Shown here in pieces: positions 53,262-64,000 of a stretch of 64,000 nucleotides of DNA. The translations under genes and the position numbers were made by a program. The number at the start of each line of letters is the position of its first letter. The first letter of the stretch is position 1. The stretch is from Actinomycetes bacterium (GTDB lineage Bacteria > Actinomycetota > Acidimicrobiia > Acidimicrobiales > JAMCPL01): assembly GCA_021841005.1 (NCBI GenBank), contig JAKBVZ010000021.1, positions 28,534-92,533 of the forward strand, written 5' to 3'. The notes beneath the pieces were generated by a model that saw nothing but the letters and a program-made list of their open reading frames with translations, was not told where the DNA came from and did no database searches.

Positions 53262-53786
53262 ATGACCGCGTGCGCAGAATACATACTCCCGCGCCCAATC
53301 ATGGTGGTAACGGATACGCTGTGTAATTGGATTGATGTGCATCGCAGCCGATATGGTGCCGCCGGACCGGCGATAGTAATAGTGACGGTTTTGGCCCTGC
53401 CATGGTGGGCGATTCTGGCAGTAGGCCACAGCCCACTGGCACCGTGGCTATTGGGTATTATGGTCGTGATATGGCTGGTGTGGGGGGCGCTATGGGGCTC
53501 CCAGCTCCCGGCACAGCAACTGTTGCTGTGCCGGTTGGCAGATATCATCGCTGCGGGATATGTCGCCTTCGCCCGCCTGGCGGAAGTGGTGGATACGCCG
53601 TTTTCCGCTGGTGAGGAGACCACGTCCATATCCCCTCGTTCCGGCGCACCACCCGGAACGACGGAGCGGGCACCCCGCCCGCATATAACACGTATCGCGT
53701 GTCGCGGTGCGACACGCACGGAGGCTGGACATGTCCCGGCCAGCCTCCGTACCGGCGACTACGGTCGTCGCGTCACCGCCATGTAA
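53262..53786 (+). CDS. small membrane protein of mobile element
   Basis: A 174-residue protein with two hydrophobic segments (AIVIVTVLALPWWAILAVG and APWLLGIMVVIWLVWGALWG) and a polar, Arg/Thr/Pro-rich C-terminal half with many basic residues. It is the first gene after the attachment site and probably leaderless. No family is recognised. A membrane role in transfer or entry exclusion is possible, but nothing in the sequence proves it. The C-terminal part overlaps the next gene. Confidence 0.55.
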   Translation: MTACAEYILPRPIMVVTDTLCNWIDVHRSRYGAAGPAIVIVTVLALPWWAILAVGHSPLAPWLLGIMVVIWLVWGALWGSQLPAQQLLLCRLADIIAAGYVAFARLAEVVDTPFSAGEETTSISPRSGAPPGTTERAPRPHITRIACRGATRTEAGHVPASLRTGDYGRRVTAM

Positions 53787-54012
53787 CGGTACCCATTCCA
53801 CCTGGCTGACGGCTGTCGAGGTCGCTGACTACCTCGGCGTGTCGATCCGCACGATCCGTGCTTGGTGTGCGGAGCACACCATCCCACATGTCCGATTGCC
53901 TGGACGTGTCGTCCGGTTTGACCGCAACGCGATAGATACCTGGGCGCGGTCACGCGCAGTGCCAGTGGCGACCGGTGTGCGCACACGTTCGCGTGGGGGT
54001 GGGCAGCGATGA
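53731..54012 (+). CDS. excisionase/MerR-like helix-turn-helix protein
   Basis: A 93-residue DNA-binding protein. WLTAVEVADYLGVSIRTIRA and the following HTIPHVRLPGRVVRFDRNAI DTW pattern (split here) are the helix-turn-helix and wing of excisionase-family proteins. ATG 53731 has ggagg about nine bases upstream. It may control excision or replication of the element. Its stop overlaps the next start. Confidence 0.75.
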   Translation: MSRPASVPATTVVASPPCNGTHSTWLTAVEVADYLGVSIRTIRAWCAEHTIPHVRLPGRVVRFDRNAIDTWARSRAVPVATGVRTRSRGGGQR

Positions 54013-54449
54013 TGTCTCGCGCAGACATCGCGGCGCGAGACATCGACTGGGAGTCGATCATGCGAGCCGCGCAACGTATGGCGCGACGATACGCCACATC
54101 GCGCGAGGATAGCGAGGATATCGCTGCGGCCGCGGTAGAACAAGTCTGGGCGATCGCCAAGAAGAGGTACGATCCTGGCAGATCGGAGACGAAATGGGTG
54201 TATGCCCATCTCTACCATGCGGTCCATACCGCAGCGGCGATACGGATCTATGGCGTGACGGGGCTATCGACTGAGGAGTGTCGCGAGGCGTTTCGGCCAT
54301 GGGACGGGATGTCGCACGCCGAGATGGTTGCTACGCTGGTATGGCGGTACCGAAAAAAGGGATATTCGCCGCACGGCGCAGCAGCCAAAGCGCAACGAGT
54401 CGCAGAGGCGATCTGGATGGCGAGAGGAGATGGGGGTGACCATGGCTGA
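54009..54449 (+). CDS. sigma-factor-region-2-like protein of mobile element
   Basis: A 146-residue basic protein. MRAAQRMARRYATSREDSED followed by IAAAAVEQVWAIAKKRYDPG and WVYAHLYHAVHTAA resembles the helices of sigma-70 region 2, but no region 4 is evident. The second half is unlike known families. It overlaps the previous stop (two tandem ATGs at 54009 and 54012) and overlaps the helicase start. Function is unknown. Confidence 0.45.
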   Translation: MMSRADIAARDIDWESIMRAAQRMARRYATSREDSEDIAAAAVEQVWAIAKKRYDPGRSETKWVYAHLYHAVHTAAAIRIYGVTGLSTEECREAFRPWDGMSHAEMVATLVWRYRKKGYSPHGAAAKAQRVAEAIWMARGDGGDHG

Positions 54450-56598
54450 TCGTCATGCGGATTTACGGGGCAGGCCAGCAGTATCGGTCGATGATGCCAC
54501 ACAGTCGCTCTCTGATGCAGCAGACGCTATCAAAAACACCTACCGCCAGTGGCTCATCGACCGGGGCGGTGGATACGGCATCCGGCGCAAATCACTATCC
54601 GCTGCACCGTTGTGGCTAGTGCAGGCAGGTACCGGTGTAGGCAAGACCACACAGCTCATACCTACGCTAGCGCTGGCACTAATCCCGCTGCTGGTGGTAG
54701 TAGAGACAAAAGAACAGGCCGAAGCAGTGGCTGATATTCTACGCACTATAGCGCCGGGCATAAACATATGGATATGGCAAGCCAGATACCAACCTGGCGA
54801 GGACGGCAATCCGTCTGCACCTGGCGCGTGTCCGATGATGGATAAGATTGCGATGGAATTGGCCGGACAAAATCACCTTATTATGCCAAATGCATGTGTG
54901 GCTGGTTGCCCGCCTGGGAAAGCTCTTGACCCCGAGTATGCTGCGGAGCACCCGGATGTTGCACCGTGTGGATACCTGGGGCAAAACGAAAAGGCCAAGC
55001 ACGCACAAGTGCTCATCATTACGGCTGATGCCTATACAGATGATCACACACAATACACACCGCCAGGTGGTGGACAAACAATCGATAGGCTCGTCGTCAA
55101 AGACGAAATCGGAGAACTGTACGCTCGACAAGATATATCGAGTGATGATATCATGACTGCGCTCCAGGCTATCCGTAGCCACGAAAATCCAGCAATGCAA
55201 CCCATCGAGCGGGCACTAGGTGAGATATTTACTGGTATGGCGAAGACCGAAGACGAGTTGCAGGGGCTAGAAGCCTGGAATATTTTGGGGAAAGAACTAC
55301 CCCAGTGGCTCTCGGGCAAGGCCGTTCAGACCGCCGAGTGGGAGCAACCAATTGTGTCGTGGAAAGACGAAACTGTCGAGGCTCCACTACGAATGATAGC
55401 CGATCTAGTCGAATGTCACAAAGCAGGACGGTTGACACTGAACGATGGGAAAATACACATGTCTATCCCTGCCCTATGGTACCAGGCTATTTTACAGGGC
55501 AAACGGCCATTTTGTCTGTTGGATGCCACCCCAGAGCCGGAAGTCGTCAATGTGGTCACTGCCAGGCAGGGAAATATTGTAGATATACACACCCGACAAG
55601 AAGTAAAAGTCCTGGTGGATAAGCGGTCATGGACAAAATCGATGCACGGAGAGAACCGCCAGGAACGCCGACTGCAGCGGGCGCAAAAGCTTGGGAACTT
55701 GTATCACTCAGCAGAAAAATATGGACTGCACAGCCCTAACATTTTGACTTACATGGTGGACACAAAATTGCTGATAGAACATTGTGGGGTGCCTGCACAA
55801 AAAGCAGGATGGTACGGAAATCACGACAAAGCCCAAAATGACTGGCTGGACACCGACCTTATAATGGCGGGCAACCTGTATCTGCCACCGGCCGAGGAAA
55901 AAATGAAATGGGTATGCTATCGTGCTACGATGAACCAATTAGGTGTTGAGTTGCCAGCGTGGACGAACAGACGATCAAGAGGGCATCGAGTAGAGGTAAC
56001 TCCTGGGCAATGGATAGCCTGGCCGGACAAGCTATCAGCGGAGCCCGAAATTGCCAAATGGCAGATAGCAGAACAGTCCCGCCGTCAGGCACAGGCACTC
56101 GGACGCATACGAGGCAACCTATACCCTGGGCATACAGCACTCATCATCGGCGGTGTTAGCAAATTGAGCCAGTACGGGTACGATGATGTCGAGGTTATTG
56201 CACATTTGCCGGAGCTTGGCGGAACACACGCCACCTGGAATATGGCGCAACACGCTCATGCATGCTTGCCGATGACGCGAGCATGGAAAAAGGAGGGTAG
56301 GGTAATGGGATTGCTGGCGACCAGGCGTGCGACAGGTATCCAGCATGGGCATGATACCTGGGCCGAACTGAAACGCGAGCTCTACAACAAATTCGGTGGA
56401 AATCTGAATGCACTTGAGGCCGCGCTAGCCGATGCCGTGGAGATGGTGGCAGCGTATGGCTATTACCCCGCTGCGGTGCGCCTGGTCCGCACAGCCGACG
56501 TAGACGTCAACGCCTACACCAAGCAGGCCGTAGGCCGTGCGATGCTGGACTGGCATGCACACCGCCACGCCCACCGCGGGCCTCCCGTCCGCACCTGA
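54442..56598 (+). CDS. SF2-type helicase/ATPase with a four-cysteine cluster
   Basis: A 718-residue protein. It has Walker A QAGTGVGKTT (about residues 62-71), a DE box in VVKDEIGEL (about 221) and a motif VI-like QALGRIRG (about 552). Between Walker A and the DE box lie four cysteines (residues 130, 152, 156, 176; C-x21-C-x3-C-x19-C), the place where XPD/DinG-type helicases carry a 4Fe-4S cluster. The spacing is not the classical one, so an Fe-S cluster is inference. It is probably the replication or processing helicase of the element. ATG 54442 is chosen over 54430 because the Shine-Dalgarno spacing is better. It is followed by a strong terminator. Confidence 0.65.
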   Translation: MADRHADLRGRPAVSVDDATQSLSDAADAIKNTYRQWLIDRGGGYGIRRKSLSAAPLWLVQAGTGVGKTTQLIPTLALALIPLLVVVETKEQAEAVADILRTIAPGINIWIWQARYQPGEDGNPSAPGACPMMDKIAMELAGQNHLIMPNACVAGCPPGKALDPEYAAEHPDVAPCGYLGQNEKAKHAQVLIITADAYTDDHTQYTPPGGGQTIDRLVVKDEIGELYARQDISSDDIMTALQAIRSHENPAMQPIERALGEIFTGMAKTEDELQGLEAWNILGKELPQWLSGKAVQTAEWEQPIVSWKDETVEAPLRMIADLVECHKAGRLTLNDGKIHMSIPALWYQAILQGKRPFCLLDATPEPEVVNVVTARQGNIVDIHTRQEVKVLVDKRSWTKSMHGENRQERRLQRAQKLGNLYHSAEKYGLHSPNILTYMVDTKLLIEHCGVPAQKAGWYGNHDKAQNDWLDTDLIMAGNLYLPPAEEKMKWVCYRATMNQLGVELPAWTNRRSRGHRVEVTPGQWIAWPDKLSAEPEIAKWQIAEQSRRQAQALGRIRGNLYPGHTALIIGGVSKLSQYGYDDVEVIAHLPELGGTHATWNMAQHAHACLPMTRAWKKEGRVMGLLATRRATGIQHGHDTWAELKRELYNKFGGNLNALEAALADAVEMVAAYGYYPAAVRLVRTADVDVNAYTKQAVGRAMLDWHAHRHAHRGPPVRT

Positions 56599-56659: not shown

Positions 56660-56681
56660 ACGGCCACTAGGCCGTTTTTTT
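56660..56681 (+). terminator. intrinsic terminator after helicase gene
   Basis: ACGGCC-ACTA-GGCCGT, six pairs with a four-base loop, followed directly by seven T residues, 61 bases after the helicase stop. Confidence 0.9.
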
Positions 56682-56767: not shown

Positions 56768-56983
56768 AGTTACTAGACCATCGTGTAGTGATAGACCATC
56801 CACCCTATGATTGGATATTTGACCTTAGGGTGGACACATCATCGTAATCCGACTTACTCGGTAAGTAGGTCGGGTACGCAGAAGAAGATTAGCACACAAC
56901 AGACTATCAACACATACCAGACCATTCCACCGGACCCAGCGTATCAGGGATACTAGATCATCGGTTATTACCAGACCATCCTG
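56768..56983. repeat. iteron-like repeats of YAGACYATC
   Basis: Six copies of a nine-base motif close to tAGACCATC occur at 56774, 56792, 56900, 56918, 56954 and 56972. The first pair and the last pair sit in a 41-base imperfect direct repeat (gtatcag...tactaga.catcg...ccagaccatcc type). The array lies in the 665-base gene-free region between the helicase and transfer genes and looks like a replication or transfer origin. Confidence 0.6.
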
Positions 56984-57056
56984 AAAAGCAAACGACTATG
57001 CAGTCTGGCGGGATGCAGTTTCGGACGGATGCAATTATGCACGCAATATCTTAATC

Positions 57057-57111
57057 TTCGTAGTTCTGACAGTTAAGGGGTGCCAGAAGGCACCCCGGTC
57101 AGGACTACGAG
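57057..57111. other. large two-stage hairpin in the origin-like region
   Basis: An outer stem of about 14 pairs (57057-57070 with 57098-57111, two G-T pairs) encloses an inner stem GGGGTGCC-AGAA-GGCACCCC (57077-57096), with a 6/1 internal loop between them. No T-run follows. It could be an origin hairpin (single-strand initiation or oriT) or a structured RNA. Confidence 0.75.
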
Positions 57112-57194
57112 AGGCATTCTACAAGCCATACCAAACTAGGGAAAAGGAACACTCTGGGTACACCCTGCAAAAATCATCTGATACCACAATATGC

Positions 57195-57236
57195 CAAGCC
57201 TCTGACCAGGACTTTTAAATCCGCTCATATATATAA
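57195..57236. repeat. upstream copy of VirB4-gene-end repeat
   Basis: The sequence caagcc-y-ctgaccagga followed by cttttaa(a)tccgctcatat occurs here and again at 60245-60282, where it is the end of the VirB4-like gene. Here it lies just before the Shine-Dalgarno of the small protein gene. The two copies bound a 3-kb segment. Confidence 0.85.
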
Positions 57237-57263
57237 GTAGAGAAGTTATAAGGAGGTATAGAT

Positions 57264-57638
57264 ATGGCAGGAAATAAATATTGCCACTGGAGGCAAGAAG
57301 ATGGTATCTGGTACATCGTTGGTTCAGTTGATGTCGTTCACGCAGGTGAAGAGGTCGAGGTGGAAACAAAGGATGGCGACATCCAGACTATCAAGATCGC
57401 AAGTCTGGGGCGAAAAATTATCGGCTGGGATGGCGCAGTGTTACAAGTTGGTATCCCAGAACCAATCGACACTGCTACTAGATTAGTTACTGATCGTCAG
57501 AAGGCACTATTGCGCCGCTTAGGAGCGGAGAACCTGGACCTCTACGAACAACTGCTTAAAGGTCGAGACGTGGCGGCAATGACTATGAACGATGCCAATG
57601 AAGCTATCGAGGCTTTACTTGACGCTCAACAAAGCTAA
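57264..57638 (+). CDS. small protein upstream of VirB4-like gene
   Basis: A 124-residue acidic protein. The first half is strand-rich (EDGIWYIVGSVDVVHAGEEV). The second half, LVTDRQKALLRRLGAENLDL and AMTMNDANEAIEALLDA, resembles a helical hairpin found at the C-terminus of many phage and plasmid proteins. aaggagg precedes ATG 57264 by seven bases. Its stop overlaps the start of the next gene (TAATG). Function is unknown. Confidence 0.6.
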   Translation: MAGNKYCHWRQEDGIWYIVGSVDVVHAGEEVEVETKDGDIQTIKIASLGRKIIGWDGAVLQVGIPEPIDTATRLVTDRQKALLRRLGAENLDLYEQLLKGRDVAAMTMNDANEAIEALLDAQQS

Positions 57639-60268
57639 TGACAAGCGAAAAAGAGCCGGTAGCATATTATTTTGGTCGGCGAGCAAGTGGAATATTCCTC
57701 GGCTTGGATGGAAAAGGCTTAGCTTTAGCGGCAGTAATCCTGGTTATTGCCATCATTGTATTTATCATAATTGGTCTGTTCGGAGCAGTCGTTGTCGCCA
57801 TTATCGGAGCGGGCATACTGTGGGCACCTTCGCCATCAGGAGCACCACTGCGTACCTTAGCTACTCCCATTATCCATTGGGCACGCTCTATGATCTCCGG
57901 CACGGCTACTGCCGACGGCACCGTCCCAACGGCTCCCCCATCCCAGCCGTCGCCCTGGAATGCCCCTTATCGAGATGTACAGATCATAGAACACGAGGGC
58001 AGAGCTTTCTACCATCGAGACCGCCAATACATAGGTGTTTGGCAACTGCAATCTCTCAGGGACTTTGCGCTCTGCAGCATCGATGAACAAGAAGATGCCT
58101 TACGCAGATGGGGCAGTACTATCGCATCCATCCTGGCAGCGCCAGCGGTACGTGAATTTGAATGGCTTGTCGAAACACTGCCCGATCCGGGCTCCGCACC
58201 GGCAAGTCATCTATCGCAGTGGTTAGCGCGCCAGAGTAACCAGCCAGACGAGACAGCCTTAGCCGACTATCGTTCTTTGTTGACTGAGGTAGGCACCCTC
58301 GCCCACCAACATCGCCTACTTGCATCTGTAGCGGTAGAACCTCGTAATGGCAAAATCGAGGCTGCAAGCGAGGAATTAGCAGCCGTAGAACACCGGTTGC
58401 TTGCCTCAGGCTTGCCGGTAAGAGTACTGGACAAGTCAGGATTGGCTGAACACCTTGCTATCGCTGTCGATCCCGACCGTGTTACCACTGCGGCTGCTTT
58501 TATGGCGTTAGATAAAAACACTCCACCAAATATCCAGCCAAGCTGGTATGAGGATCTGTCCTCTCTCGATCTATCCCATTGTGTCTATAGCTCTTTTGGC
58601 ATCACGGAACTCCCGCGTACTGCAGTCGGTGCCGACTGGATGTGGCCGCTATTGACAGCTATACCACCTGGTCTGAGATATGTCGTTGCAGTACATATGA
58701 CTCCTATCGCTCCGTGGTTGGCGATGCGCCATGCCGAGGCAGCAGTTACATCGGCTGAATCGGAGGCCAGACGGAGACAACGAGCCGGTGGGTTGGAACG
58801 AGCGCGGGATCGATCCGTAATGACCGCTCTGTTGCGCAGAGAAGAAGAGATCGCCGCGGGCGAATCACTAGTGCGCACCAAGATTGTGATCACCGTCGCC
58901 GGACGTAGCCAGACGGAGGTGGAGTCCGCCAAGGATGCGGTGCTCGCTGCTGCCAGGCGTTCCCGCCTGGATATACGAACTCTATATGGAGCACAACGTG
59001 CTGGATGGGAATCTTGTCTTGCCCTGTGCTCACCGCCGCAGGTGGAAACCCATGAGACTACTACTCGCCATGCCCGTAGTTTCTATCCAGCACAAGTCTC
59101 AGCTGAACAATCAGGGGCAGGTATTTTAGTTGGCCAAGATGCCTTATCTGGCTCCCCGTGGAGCTGGGACCCATTTGTTTTATATGAACGAGGAATGGTC
59201 ACGAATCCTAATGCCGCCGTGCTGGGACAGGTGGGCCGCGGAAAATCATCAATCGTTAAGGCACTGCTGGCGCGAGGTGTAGGAGTGTTTGGTTATCGAG
59301 CCTGGGTGCTCGACCCGAAGGGAGAATATGGACCATTAGCTGAAGCACTGGGTCTACCCTTGCTGCGATTACAACCGTCCGGTACTGAGCGCATCAATCC
59401 ACTCGATGTACCGAGTTCGTTGTCTCAAACAGATACAGCAGCACGGAGAGCACAATTACTAGAGGCGTTGGCGTCCGCGGAGTTGAACCGTCCGCTGGAA
59501 ATCGAAGAAATCCGTGCCATCGATGCTGTCTGCCACCGGCTTACCTCTGCACCTACACTTGTCGATGCAGCAAATGCGATGCTGGAGCCGGATCAGGAAC
59601 TGGCTTTGGACTTGGCGTCGTCACCTGAGGCAGTAAAAGCGGCCATCCGACCGGCGGCACTTGCCCTACAGCATCTATGTCAGGGCAGGTTGGCAGGGAT
59701 GTTTGACGGCCAGTCCACGATCTCTCTCGACGCACGAGGTGGTGTTATTGACCTCTCGGCCACCTATTCCGATACTGCAGCACTGCCTCCGATAATGGCG
59801 GCAACAATGTCTTGGCTTACCGCAGGGATGGCAGGTGGTGGTGGTCGGAGCTTTTTGGTGGTGGATGAGGCTTGGGCAGTGTTGTCTACCGGAATTGACT
59901 TTTTACGCTCAACCGCCAAACTCGCTCGATCCCTTGGCGTATCACTCATCCTCATGATGCATCGAATGTCCGACCTGGCTTCGGCAGGTGACGATTCGTC
60001 GGCAATTAGTAAAAAAGCCCAAGGTCTTTTTCAAGACGTTGAATCGGTATTCGCCTTTGGACAAGGAGCAAACGAAGCGGGTGCCCTAGCTGCCGCGCTC
60101 GAACTTTCGGATCGAGAAGCTGAGTTGCTAACCCAACTCGGTAGAGGGCGCTGCTTAGCGGTCGTCGGCAACCATCACACCCTGGTGGATGTTGTGCTCA
60201 CGGAACGAGAAAAGCAGATTACCGACACTGATGCCGCGATGCGACAAGCCCCTGACCAGGACTTTTAA
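57638..60268 (+). CDS. VirB4/TraC-like conjugation ATPase with SCO6880-like N-terminus
   Basis: An 876-residue protein. Two membrane segments near the start (about residues 26-62) resemble SCO6880-type proteins. A long middle domain follows. The C-terminal ATPase has Walker A LGQVGRGKSSIVKALL (about 528) followed by AWVLDPKGEYGPLAEALGLP, and Walker B FLVVDEAWAVL (about 740) followed by LILMMHRMSDLASAGDDSSA. This matches VirB4-family ATPases that power type IV secretion. Fusion of the membrane part and the ATPase in one chain is typical of some actinobacterial conjugative elements. Relaxase and coupling protein are not seen in the window and may lie past the right edge. Confidence 0.75.
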   Translation: MTSEKEPVAYYFGRRASGIFLGLDGKGLALAAVILVIAIIVFIIIGLFGAVVVAIIGAGILWAPSPSGAPLRTLATPIIHWARSMISGTATADGTVPTAPPSQPSPWNAPYRDVQIIEHEGRAFYHRDRQYIGVWQLQSLRDFALCSIDEQEDALRRWGSTIASILAAPAVREFEWLVETLPDPGSAPASHLSQWLARQSNQPDETALADYRSLLTEVGTLAHQHRLLASVAVEPRNGKIEAASEELAAVEHRLLASGLPVRVLDKSGLAEHLAIAVDPDRVTTAAAFMALDKNTPPNIQPSWYEDLSSLDLSHCVYSSFGITELPRTAVGADWMWPLLTAIPPGLRYVVAVHMTPIAPWLAMRHAEAAVTSAESEARRRQRAGGLERARDRSVMTALLRREEEIAAGESLVRTKIVITVAGRSQTEVESAKDAVLAAARRSRLDIRTLYGAQRAGWESCLALCSPPQVETHETTTRHARSFYPAQVSAEQSGAGILVGQDALSGSPWSWDPFVLYERGMVTNPNAAVLGQVGRGKSSIVKALLARGVGVFGYRAWVLDPKGEYGPLAEALGLPLLRLQPSGTERINPLDVPSSLSQTDTAARRAQLLEALASAELNRPLEIEEIRAIDAVCHRLTSAPTLVDAANAMLEPDQELALDLASSPEAVKAAIRPAALALQHLCQGRLAGMFDGQSTISLDARGGVIDLSATYSDTAALPPIMAATMSWLTAGMAGGGGRSFLVVDEAWAVLSTGIDFLRSTAKLARSLGVSLILMMHRMSDLASAGDDSSAISKKAQGLFQDVESVFAFGQGANEAGALAAALELSDREAELLTQLGRGRCLAVVGNHHTLVDVVLTEREKQITDTDAAMRQAPDQDF

Positions 60269-60282
60269 TCCGCTCATATAAG
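60245..60282. repeat. downstream copy of the 57195 repeat, overlapping VirB4 gene end
   Basis: This copy includes codons for the last five residues and stop of the VirB4-like gene and differs from the 57195 copy by a few bases. It also contains the TGACCAGG octamer at 60253-60260. Confidence 0.85.
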
Positions 60283-60320: not shown

Positions 60321-63300
60321 ATGAAAACACTGATAAAAATTATCACAGCAGGATCGAGTGTGATGCTCCTAGCAGCTGGCCTGATACTCGGTACTACGGG
60401 CGTTGCGTCGGCAACTGGTACTACGCCGAGCACTACGTCAGTTACAGCGTCTGTCGGGACACCCATTGATAATGCCGCAACAATTAACCTAGGTATCAAC
60501 GTAACGGGCAGCAGTGGTACGCCGACTGGTGCCTTTACATTCACGATGACTTATTCCAGCGAGGCGTCTGGCCAGACCGAAACATGTGACACAGGGAACA
60601 GCAGTCTCGATAGCGGAGGACAATGGGTTGGTAGCATTTATGTTTCTGCCACCACTTGTGCGCTTCCTGAAACGATCACTGTAACGGTCGATTACGAGGG
60701 CAATAGCACTTATGCGCCCAGCTCGGGATCGGAGACTGTATTGGTGCCGTCGCCAACCGCCACAACCATTACCGGTCCCTCTACCGCCACCGTAGGTCAG
60801 CCAGCAACATTTACGGCTACGGTCACATCTGACGGCCAGGGCACCCCTACCGGCACGATAACTTTCAGTGCTGGCGGAACAACTCTTTGTACTGAATCAG
60901 ATACTACGGGCACAGCAACCTGCACCACTTCCGCATTGTTAGGAGGGTCTCAGGCGGTAACCGCCGATTACAGCGGAGGGCCTGATTATTCTGCGAGCTG
61001 GGCGGTGATGAACGTGACAGTCAACACGCCTGCCGCGACAACCACTACAGTCTCTGTATCACCGAATCCTGTGTATGCCGGAGAGACTGAAACGATTACC
61101 GTGGAGGTTGCCAGCTCTAGCGGTACGCCCACTGGGTCAGTCTCATATACAGTAACGGAACCGAATGGTACAGTAGCATTTCAAGGGACCGTGAGTTTGA
61201 ACAGATCGGGCGAATGGTCGATATCAGACCCCATTACGTCCAGTGCAGCTCTTGGTACCTGGACAGTAAATGTTTCTTACGCTGGCAATTCCACCTACGC
61301 CACCAGTTCGGGATCGGCCAGCTTGACTATAGAGGCCCCACCAAAAACGGCCACATCGACATCCATGGCGGTCTCGGCCAATCCGATACAGGCTGGCCAG
61401 AGTGAGACCTTTACTGCTACCGTGTCATCTGCATCGGGTACTCCAACCGGTACCGTAGCGTTCAGCGATGGTGGTGGCGACCTCAGCGGATGCAGCTCTG
61501 TTGCACTCAATTCCTCCGGCGCGGCGATCTGCGTCTACACAATCCCGTCGGGGCTGTCAGGAACGTACGATTACTACGCTGAATACCTGGGCAACAGCAC
61601 CTATGCGTCCAGTAGCGTAACTGTATCTCTGAGTATCACATCATCTAAGACCGCCACTACAACAACCCTAGCCACCTCGCCCGATCCTGTAAATGTGGGA
61701 CAGACAGAGACCTTTACGGCTACGGTGTCTGCAGCATCCGGCACACCGACCGGCACTGTTACATTTACCGGACCAAACGGCAACCTCAGTGGATGCATCT
61801 CTGTCTCTCTTAACTCAGCGGGCACAGCAACCTGCACATATACGATACCGTCGGTAAGCACGGGGAACTATGTGTTCGAGGACGACTACTCTGGGAGCGG
61901 AACTTATGCGGCCTCAGGTGGTAGTGCGAATCTACAGATTGATGGGGATCTTGCGAATACGGGGACAACACTGACGGTATCGTCCAATCCAGTGCCAGCA
62001 GGTCAGAGTGTCACATTCACGGCATCTGTTCAGACCGCAACGGGCACTCCCACCGGCACCGTAGCGTTCAGCGATGGTGGTGGCGACCTCAGCGGATGCA
62101 GCTCTGTTGCACTCAATTCCTCCGGCGTAGCGACTTGCGTCTACACCGTTCCGGCGTATTGGAGTGGAGCTGTTCCCTATGCTGCCAGGTATTCAGGCAG
62201 TTCCACTTATGCCTACAGCATCGGCTACCTGACACTGACAATCGAACCTGCCACTACAGCGACCACCACAACGATCACAGCCTCACCTAATCCCGTGTAT
62301 GCGTACGAAGGCGAAACTCTTTCGGCTACGGTGTCTGCAGCATCCGGCACACCGACCGGTGCGATCACCTATACGGTCACCGCACCGGATGGCACTGTGG
62401 CAGGCGAGGGCTCTCCTTCTCTAAACAGTGCGGGAGAGTGGACAATATCGACACCGATACCAATTGTACCTGCTACCGAGCTTGGTACCTGGACAGTAAA
62501 TGTTTCTTACGTCGGCAATTCCACCTACGCCGCCAGTTCGGGATCGACTACCTTTGTCGTCGAATCGCCACCCAAGACGGGCAGTACTACTACGCTCGAC
62601 GCCAATCCTGGTATATATGCAGTGCCAGGGTCTACGGTACTAAGTGCGCTGGTCATGGGAAGCTCCGGCACTCCAACCGGAACTGTTACCTTTGGTTTTG
62701 ATGGAACAGTACTTTGTCCGGCCGTATCACTAACTGGTACGTCCTCGACTTCCGCTACTGCAACGTGTACAACGTCGAGTTTGCCAATAGGAACCGATAC
62801 TGTTGCCGCTAATTATTCTGGCAGCAGTACCTATACATCCAGTTCCGCCACCACCAGCGTCCAGGTTCTGGCCGATCCCGCCACGGTATCAGTTGTGGCC
62901 AATCCGGTACATATCTCATCGGGTGATACCACTACCTTGACAGCAACCGTCAAGGACACGATTAACAACCTGCCAGAGACTTCAGGAACAGTGAAGTTTG
63001 AGTTTGATGGACAAATTCTCTGTGTAAAGACAGTCTCGAACACAAAAGGTACTGCAACGTGTGCCACCTCCAGCCTGCCGGTTGGAACCGATATTGTTGT
63101 CGCACAATGGGTCGGCACCAGCGGTGGAAAAACAATATACGCCAGCGGTGGCACGAATGTGTATGTGCTGAAGGCATCCACGCCAACGCCCATTCCGCCC
63201 ACGCCAACGCCTGCTCCACCAGTACCCGTGGTCACCGGTATCAGTCCCAGCACTGGGCCAACTACTGGCGGCACTACGGTCACCATCACCGGCACCAACC

Positions 63301-64000
63301 TCTCCGGTGCGGGCTATGTGTTCTTTGCCTCCAAGACTGCCACAAGCTACACTGTCAAAGAAATATCGCAATTTGATATCGAGATAATCGCCGTGGCACC
63401 ACCAGGGACAGGGACGGTAAACGTTACAGTGACCACCCCTGGAGGTACTTCTGCCACATCGGTAGCTGACCGGTTCACTTATGTATCTCCCACTCCGCCA
63501 GTCAAAACTACACCGACCACCTGGCACGCGATTTCGCCGGTACGAATATGTGACACAAGGCCAGGAAACCGTTCTCAACTGTCCGGTAGCGCCCTGGTGC
63601 AATGCAGCGGACTTACGATGGGTGGAGCAAGACAGAACCTTAACATTCAGGTAGCTGGCATCAGCGGAATACCTGCTAATGCAACTGCTGTGATATTGAA
63701 TATCACGGCAGATCGGCCTACAGCGGATGGAGAGCTGATGGTCTGCCCTGGTAGTTCTACGACAAGGTGTGTTCCTGTCTCGACATTCAAAGGCGGTGTC
63801 TATGCCATCGCTGCCGCAAAAATGGTGGCGGTCGCAGGTGAGAGAGTAACCATAGAGTACCGAGGCGCTGGGTTCGTGAACATCATCGTGGATGTCGAGG
63901 GATACGAGACTTCTGCAGTAGTCAATCCGGTGTCTTTGACCAAGCCGGTCACTGTTTTTACCGGACATGTTACATCTACACCAGTACCCGTAGATATCTC
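60321..64000 (+). CDS. giant Ig-repeat surface protein with TIG and DTR modules (partial)
   Basis: An open frame runs without a stop from ATG 60321 (aggaaaaggtga upstream) to the right edge, more than 1226 codons. Residues 1-31 are a signal peptide (MKTLIKIITAGSSVMLLAAG then a cleavage site near VASA). About eight to nine Ig-like repeats of about 100 residues follow (recurring SANPIQAGQSETFTATVSSA, SGTPTGTVAFSDGG, YLGNSTYASSS), of the bacterial Ig-like type found on adhesins. Near residue 965 a TIG domain opens with GISPSTGPTTGGTTVTITGT, then a DTR module with RICDTRPGNRSQLSG and IIVDVEGYE. The TIG and DTR parts closely match the chromosomal protein at 2605-6957. Following a conjugation ATPase, it may act in cell-cell contact; that is inference. 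Confidence 0.85.
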   Translation, partial: MKTLIKIITAGSSVMLLAAGLILGTTGVASATGTTPSTTSVTASVGTPIDNAATINLGINVTGSSGTPTGAFTFTMTYSSEASGQTETCDTGNSSLDSGGQWVGSIYVSATTCALPETITVTVDYEGNSTYAPSSGSETVLVPSPTATTITGPSTATVGQPATFTATVTSDGQGTPTGTITFSAGGTTLCTESDTTGTATCTTSALLGGSQAVTADYSGGPDYSASWAVMNVTVNTPAATTTTVSVSPNPVYAGETETITVEVASSSGTPTGSVSYTVTEPNGTVAFQGTVSLNRSGEWSISDPITSSAALGTWTVNVSYAGNSTYATSSGSASLTIEAPPKTATSTSMAVSANPIQAGQSETFTATVSSASGTPTGTVAFSDGGGDLSGCSSVALNSSGAAICVYTIPSGLSGTYDYYAEYLGNSTYASSSVTVSLSITSSKTATTTTLATSPDPVNVGQTETFTATVSAASGTPTGTVTFTGPNGNLSGCISVSLNSAGTATCTYTIPSVSTGNYVFEDDYSGSGTYAASGGSANLQIDGDLANTGTTLTVSSNPVPAGQSVTFTASVQTATGTPTGTVAFSDGGGDLSGCSSVALNSSGVATCVYTVPAYWSGAVPYAARYSGSSTYAYSIGYLTLTIEPATTATTTTITASPNPVYAYEGETLSATVSAASGTPTGAITYTVTAPDGTVAGEGSPSLNSAGEWTISTPIPIVPATELGTWTVNVSYVGNSTYAASSGSTTFVVESPPKTGSTTTLDANPGIYAVPGSTVLSALVMGSSGTPTGTVTFGFDGTVLCPAVSLTGTSSTSATATCTTSSLPIGTDTVAANYSGSSTYTSSSATTSVQVLADPATVSVVANPVHISSGDTTTLTATVKDTINNLPETSGTVKFEFDGQILCVKTVSNTKGTATCATSSLPVGTDIVVAQWVGTSGGKTIYASGGTNVYVLKASTPTPIPPTPTPAPPVPVVTGISPSTGPTTGGTTVTITGTNLSGAGYVFFASKTATSYTVKEISQFDIEIIAVAPPGTGTVNVTVTTPGGTSATSVADRFTYVSPTPPVKTTPTTWHAISPVRICDTRPGNRSQLSGSALVQCSGLTMGGARQNLNIQVAGISGIPANATAVILNITADRPTADGELMVCPGSSTTRCVPVSTFKGGVYAIAAAKMVAVAGERVTIEYRGAGFVNIIVDVEGYETSAVVNPVSLTKPVTVFTGHVTSTPVPVDI

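Follow-up and report, generated by a model that had tools for sequence, protein, structure and literature searches.

Results

The conjugative element and its non-coding island

The window analyzed here, a stretch of 64,000 nucleotides, covers positions 28534-92533 of contig 33 (G000:C33) in a draft genome of 2.45 Mb. Rightward of about 53 kb, the window contains a conjugative element. Its genes encode, in order, an HTH_17 protein, a small sigma-like protein and a helicase-like protein, followed by a non-coding island and then by a 124-aa ORF, a VirB4-type ATPase and a surface protein with Ig repeats. Past the window end come a predicted membrane protein, a small DUF6112 protein, an NlpC/P60-like protein and a VirD4 coupling protein.

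The upstream operon opens with the HTH_17 gene (53707-54012, + strand), whose 101-aa product resembles excisionases, recombination directionality factors and BldC. It matches Pfam HTH_17 at 1.6e-14 and, in NCBIfam, excise at 4.7e-13 and, more weakly, HTH_BldC at 6.7e-5; its best solved relatives in the PDB are 4J2N (3.1e-5), which is Gp37, called Pukovnik Xis in PMC11963761, and 8DGL, which is RdfS (0.0034). Next is a small protein (54009-54449, +) with weak similarity to sigma-70 region 2 (Pfam Sigma70_r2 0.0014, below the family cut-off; TIGR02937 0.0023). The third gene (54328-56598, +) encodes a rare helicase-like protein, in which the SF2-like motifs GTGVGKTT, DEIG, DATP and QALGRIRG were recognized by eye. 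This protein has zero family matches in Pfam, NCBIfam or the PDB, and no above-threshold match in 395 genomes of the class, plasmids, phages or viral contigs; in a set of 99 relatives, one match was found, weak and partial (31% over 75 residues). An intrinsic terminator (56660-56681, +; ACGGCCACTAGGCCGT and a T run) closes the operon.

The transfer operon begins with the 124-aa protein (57264-57638, +), which has no assigned function. It is followed by the conjugation ATPase (57638-60268, +), which is of VirB4 type and SCO6880-like in its N-terminal half (NCBIfam SCO6880_fam 1.2e-29, VirB4-like families). Also within this operon lies a large secreted-looking protein (60321-63998) with at least 8 Ig-like (Big_3_5) repeats, possibly a mating adhesin. 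The first-pass annotation had placed the region of interest between a helicase gene and a conjugation ATPase gene. A non-coding island is indeed found there, but the 124-aa ORF intervenes before the ATPase, and the helicase is SF2-like by eye only.

A phased array of direct repeats

Across the intergenic region of 664 bp, the motif YAGAYYATY occurs six times on the plus strand, with starts at 56774, 56792, 56900, 56918, 56954 and 56972, and 0 times on the minus strand; 0.06 occurrences are expected, and the maximum in 20,000 dinucleotide shuffles was 2. Four of the six are exact YAGACYATC, and those at 56918 (CAGACCATT) and 56954 (TAGATCATC) differ from it by one mismatch each. The repeats form three pairs, each with a spacing of 18 (2 x 9 bp) and with offsets of 126 and 54 bp between pairs: TAGACCATC at both 56774 and 56792 (56774-56800, +), CAGACTATC at 56900 with CAGACCATT (56900-56926, +), and TAGATCATC with CAGACCATC at 56972 (56954-56980, +). 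All starts are congruent modulo 9 and 18, and a single 18-bp register holds all six repeats (slots 0, 1, 7, 8, 10 and 11). The earlier description of six paired YAGACYATC motifs was thus borne out. The island also contains an inverted repeat (56799-56834; TCCACCCTA / TAGGGTGGA) and a minor imperfect hairpin (56849-56873; CCGACTTAC TCG GTAAGTAGGTCGG).

The paired form YAGAYYATY-N9-YAGAYYATY is unique to this island in the 2.45-Mb genome, and 0 occurrences were found in 40 relatives. The expectation that the repeats would recur in relatives of the element therefore failed in these 40, though they also lack the neighboring helicase gene.

A compound hairpin related to a dispersed family

Downstream of the array lies a compound hairpin (57058-57110, +), composed of an outer 13-bp stem (one pair being T-G), an inner 8-bp stem and an AGAA loop. 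With 21 pairs, a folding energy of -40.3 kcal/mol and a z of -6.9, it agrees well with the two-stage hairpin of about 22 pairs noted previously. Right behind it is a conserved tail (57109-57130, +; GAGAGGCATTCTACAAGCCATA, family form GAGAGNCATCCTACGGCYCATA), with the conserved unpaired sequence GAGAGNCATYCTAC. A T run 3' of the hairpin is absent, and no consensus RNA structure beyond the hairpin was supported. The region has no gathering-threshold match in Rfam 15 and nothing relevant at E up to 5, and searches of the plasmid and phage collections with it returned nothing; three phage matches (E 0.2, 38 nt) were taken as chance. Neither the hairpin tail nor the leader element described below was found in the viral contigs searched.

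The first sign of a dispersed family was that the sequence past 57077 matched other contigs. A covariance model (R1) was built from nine aligned copies from this genome and two genomes of the same genus, with the window copy excluded. In the window, this model scores 57065-57130 at 22 bits, with an E of 0.0018 in 64 kb and 0.069 genome-wide, which is weak taken alone. Its 18 matches in total, 17 of which are relatives of the window copy, are spread over four genomes of the genus (9, 6, 2 and 1 weak), and the other genomes searched gave none. The window copy shares with the family just the hairpin and about 20 nt, and the 14 bases past the stem (GAGAGGCATTCTAC) match at the correct spacing. Compared with copy L040, 13 of 13 outer pairs are kept through 3 double changes and 1 single change (G-T/A-T); under a simple model that places as many substitutions at random, the probability of keeping all pairs is 0.0006. 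On alignment A3, the covariation of the family exceeds that of all 500 shuffles and of all slid registers. Both G-T and A-C cells are present on the modelled strand, so the strand sign is not clear. Taking stem and tail together, a kinship between the window hairpin and the dispersed family is well supported. Distant genomes (L006, L011, L012) have short matches to the GC-rich inner stem that sit in other contexts and were put down to chance.

The relatives have the following neighbors. On contig C11, tRNA-Glu is followed by integrase, excisionase, leader element, the block that is conserved upstream of the relaxase and, last, the hairpin. G001:C10 and G004:C33 run from integrase and excisionase through a relaxase remnant and that same oriT-like block to the hairpin, and on G001:C101 a hairpin copy lies 49 bp before an integrase gene. 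On C1, a hairpin-bearing segment of 410 bp interrupts a tRNA-Glu in the anticodon loop, beside gltX and tRNA-Gln, and C7 ends in the same tRNA-Glu half; in G004 this tRNA-Glu is intact. The cuts in tRNA-Glu(CTC) were located at L101 7638 (contig C1) and L028 2448 (contig C7), with the gene intact at the matching place in G004, and they are the work of integrative-element remnants. From these neighborhoods (C11, G001:C10, G004:C33, G001:C101, C1 and C7), we conclude that the hairpin is part of the attachment/oriT end in integrative elements that insert at tRNA-Glu(CTC). Three loci have a hairpin relative at a distance of 350-410 bp from the presumed oriT block.

That the dispersed element might be an insertion sequence with its own ends was considered and rejected, since the shared 410 bp end in tRNA-Glu, which marks the attachment-site end of integrated elements and not an insertion-sequence end. 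Most hairpin copies are remnants of integrative elements. Some have no recognized element gene beside them (e.g. G001:C32, G001:C88 and G004:C13), and many are decayed or shortened, or occupy intergenic positions of the chromosome that lack transfer genes; such copies therefore do not show selection for a role in transfer. The family is previously undescribed and small, and accompanies such elements in one genus. A further repeat, GACTATTCCTGCGTAATTTGCC with its conserved stretch (L024 9669-9693, many contigs), is dispersed in several genomes of the genus and adjoins some hairpin copies; it seems to be the end of a separate IS21-like element.

A putative leader element shared by transfer and integration modules

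Directly upstream of the transfer operon is a dispersed, promoter-like ICE leader element (57194-57263, +), with ATCCGCTCATATA at 57219-57231 and the ribosome-binding site AAGGAGG. Its first 51 bp (57194-57244) have a 98% identical copy on contig C11 upstream of xis, the excisionase gene, where YAGAYYATY-type repeats are absent, and copies at 85-88% identity at the junction of the relaxase gene and the next gene on C8 and at that of virB4 and the next gene in the window. The 13-mer core ATCCGCTSATATA occurs at exactly five sites in the genome (window 57219-57231 and 60268-60280; G000:C8:2258, C8:6125 and C11:63071), each ahead of a gene of a conjugative or integrative module, and never in the backward-read control. 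It is probably an element-specific promoter or operator/leader. The sigma-like protein, encoded between the HTH_17 and helicase-like genes, might serve this motif. Part of the leader, CCTCTGACCAGGACTTTTA (L005 1501-1520, L007 1501-1519), also turns up next to tRNA genes of other families within the order and is possibly tied to integrase attachment sites.

The terminator at 56660-56681 and the leader motif at 57219-57231 bound the island, placing the repeats and the hairpin between transcription units; thus, neither of the known units on its flanks has to be transcribed across it.

The relaxase and a candidate oriT elsewhere in the genome

A complete relaxase gene was seen just once, on contig C8. 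It is of TrwC type (MobF), and the C8 relaxase region lacks the hairpin; on the window's contig stretch no relaxase gene was recognized. Directly upstream of the MobF relaxase start lies a 55-bp block (GGGCAGTGGTGCATACTGTGTCTCCTAACCATTACTCG...) that is nearly identical in three genomes. Its GGGCAGTGGTGCATANTGTGTCTCCTAACC form was located at G000:C8:6193, C11:63318, G001:C10:2246, G004:C33:26433 and C19:330, ahead of relaxase starts or remnants, and its GGGCAGTGGTGCATANTGTGTCTCC form is absent from the window and present in this genome on C8 and C11 only. On these sequence grounds, the block is the likely candidate oriT of the element family. The family thus resembles known MobF (TrwC-type) systems in having a TrwC relaxase with a conserved block before its start, and differs in that this block, at C8:6193, is outside the window.

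At their 3' ends, virB4 and the MobF relaxase gene have 37 nt in common (window 60245-60280; L027 2258-2294), so that both proteins, which are otherwise unrelated, end in MRQAPDQDF. This identical C-terminus, together with the common leader motifs, suggests that C8 and C33 hold parts of the same kind of element, though the two are unjoined in the assembly.

Discussion

A regulatory role offers one way to read the repeats. In Streptomyces, each BldC protomer binds a 9-bp direct repeat in head-to-tail fashion (PMC5859096). RdfS of ICEMlSymR7A, an HTH_17 directionality factor, heads the conjugation operon, binds attP and promoter regions, and connects excision with conjugation (PMC11963761). The window combines traits of both systems, with an element-encoded protein of HTH_17/BldC type and direct repeats on a 9-bp register. 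Like the BldC operators, the repeats are 9-bp direct repeats, and their strict 9/18-bp register on one strand is the pattern to be expected from a BldC-like head-to-tail filament. Unlike them, they read YAGAYYATY instead of the BldC consensus AATTNNNNC, and the alternate 9-mers are not conserved. Both differences count against the operator model, in which, at a spacing of 18 bp, one 9-mer in two would lie outside the consensus, and so does the lack of such repeats in the region upstream of xis on C11. The likeness to RdfS/Xis-type factors lies in an HTH_17 protein that heads an operon of a conjugative element and has 8DGL and 4J2N as its closest solved relatives by sequence; the difference is that RdfS has no clear consensus site, whereas here a clear 9-mer in register presents itself as a putative site. 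By analogy, we infer that the repeats are candidate docking sites for the HTH_17 protein at 53707-54012.

The first-pass annotation had taken the layout as that of a replication or transfer origin. The conjugative setting and the position of the island between replication-like and transfer operons stand; against an origin, the likely oriT is elsewhere, the hairpin is a copy of a dispersed family, and the repeats have a simpler candidate ligand. For an oriV, the repeats would be iterons used after excision, with the HTH_17 or helicase-like protein as initiator and the hairpin as a primer or single-strand site. An insulated, non-coding island with direct repeats in a fixed register, adjoining an operon with a helicase-like gene, accords with this, as does the need of transferred elements for second-strand synthesis, some ICEs having an sso (PMC4595007). 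Yet the neighboring proteins, the helicase-like one included, match no known initiator family, inspection of the region, which was unsystematic, did not identify a DnaA box or an AT-rich unwinding region, and the hairpin is present in other elements that lack the repeats, which leaves an oriV unlikely, if worth keeping in mind. Lower still we rate nicking of the region by the element's relaxase as the start of transfer. Direct repeats and a hairpin do precede the type IV secretion genes, and the closeness of hairpin relatives to the presumed oriT block in three loci speaks for it. But the 55-bp block that precedes the MobF relaxase start is absent from the window, the island precedes the 124-aa ORF and virB4 and not a relaxase gene, none being recognized on this contig stretch, and some hairpin copies are far from any relaxase gene. 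An oriT at this place is thus rather improbable.

The hairpin could also act at the level of RNA or transcription, as a terminator or insulator that lacks a U tract, or as part of a small structured RNA. Its strong stem, conserved unpaired GAGAGNCATYCTAC tail and covariation would suit such a device; the absence of an Rfam match and of a T run, the G-T and A-C cells on the modelled strand, the termination of the helicase operon already 380 bp upstream and the location of the hairpin upstream of the presumed leader, not within it, would not, and we consider this role unlikely. Finally, the scattered copies, many of them decayed or truncated, might invite the view that a dispersed non-coding repeat landed here by chance and that the hairpin persists as its passive relic. 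The window copy is among the best paired, and the compensatory changes relative to L040 argue against a relic, which would not keep pairing; we therefore regard this as very improbable.

The explanation that we favor, and hold tentatively, is that the region serves an integrative conjugative element (ICE) as a control island acting in cis, in which an operator array of the HTH_17 protein is combined with a transfer-associated structured element. The island would then consist of two unrelated modules and is probably a control region of gene transfer, not the transfer origin itself. Module 1 (56774-56980) would be the operator array, with six same-direction 9-bp sites in one 9/18-bp register. 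The HTH_17 protein of the adjacent upstream operon would bind it head-to-tail, and would thereby tie this operon, with its excision and replication functions, to the downstream type IV secretion operon. Module 2 (57058-57130) is a copy of the genus-specific structured element, which in sister elements has the presumed oriT on one side and the attachment site on the other. It would most likely work in folded, single-stranded form, while the element is being transferred or thereafter, as a single-strand origin or ssDNA promoter; an insulator or RNA function is less likely. In our judgment, the operator array has the stronger support and the single-strand role of the hairpin comes second.

The placement of the hairpin in sister elements, together with the precedent of ICEBs1, fits the single-strand role. 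The sso1 of ICEBs1 is non-coding and acts as a single strand through stem-loops, of which three are predicted (PMC4595007). The hairpin is likewise a non-coding stem-loop in an ICE, but it is a single compound hairpin followed by a conserved tail, and the element family has a relaxase of MobF type. A more far-reaching idea, which we put forward as speculation, is that the hairpin and its GAGAGNCATYCTAC tail represent a new class of single-strand-active element (sso/ssDNA promoter) of MobF conjugative elements in one genus of uncultured Actinobacteria. Such an element would travel with att/oriT modules, would have moved beside the transfer operon here, and would work alongside a directionality factor's operator array, itself new and strictly phased.

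Cis-control sites of ICEs are known as a kind, to which the hairpin family and the phased array each add a new variant. Conjugative elements in uncultured Actinobacteria have been poorly characterized, and most of their cis-acting sites are undescribed. The present locus offers three cis elements, namely the phased operator array, the structured hairpin family and the element-specific leader motif, and its sister loci offer a candidate oriT and a tRNA-Glu integration site. Should the directionality factor bind the repeats, excision and transfer would be coupled through one protein, as by RdfS in Mesorhizobium, but with a readable recognition code.
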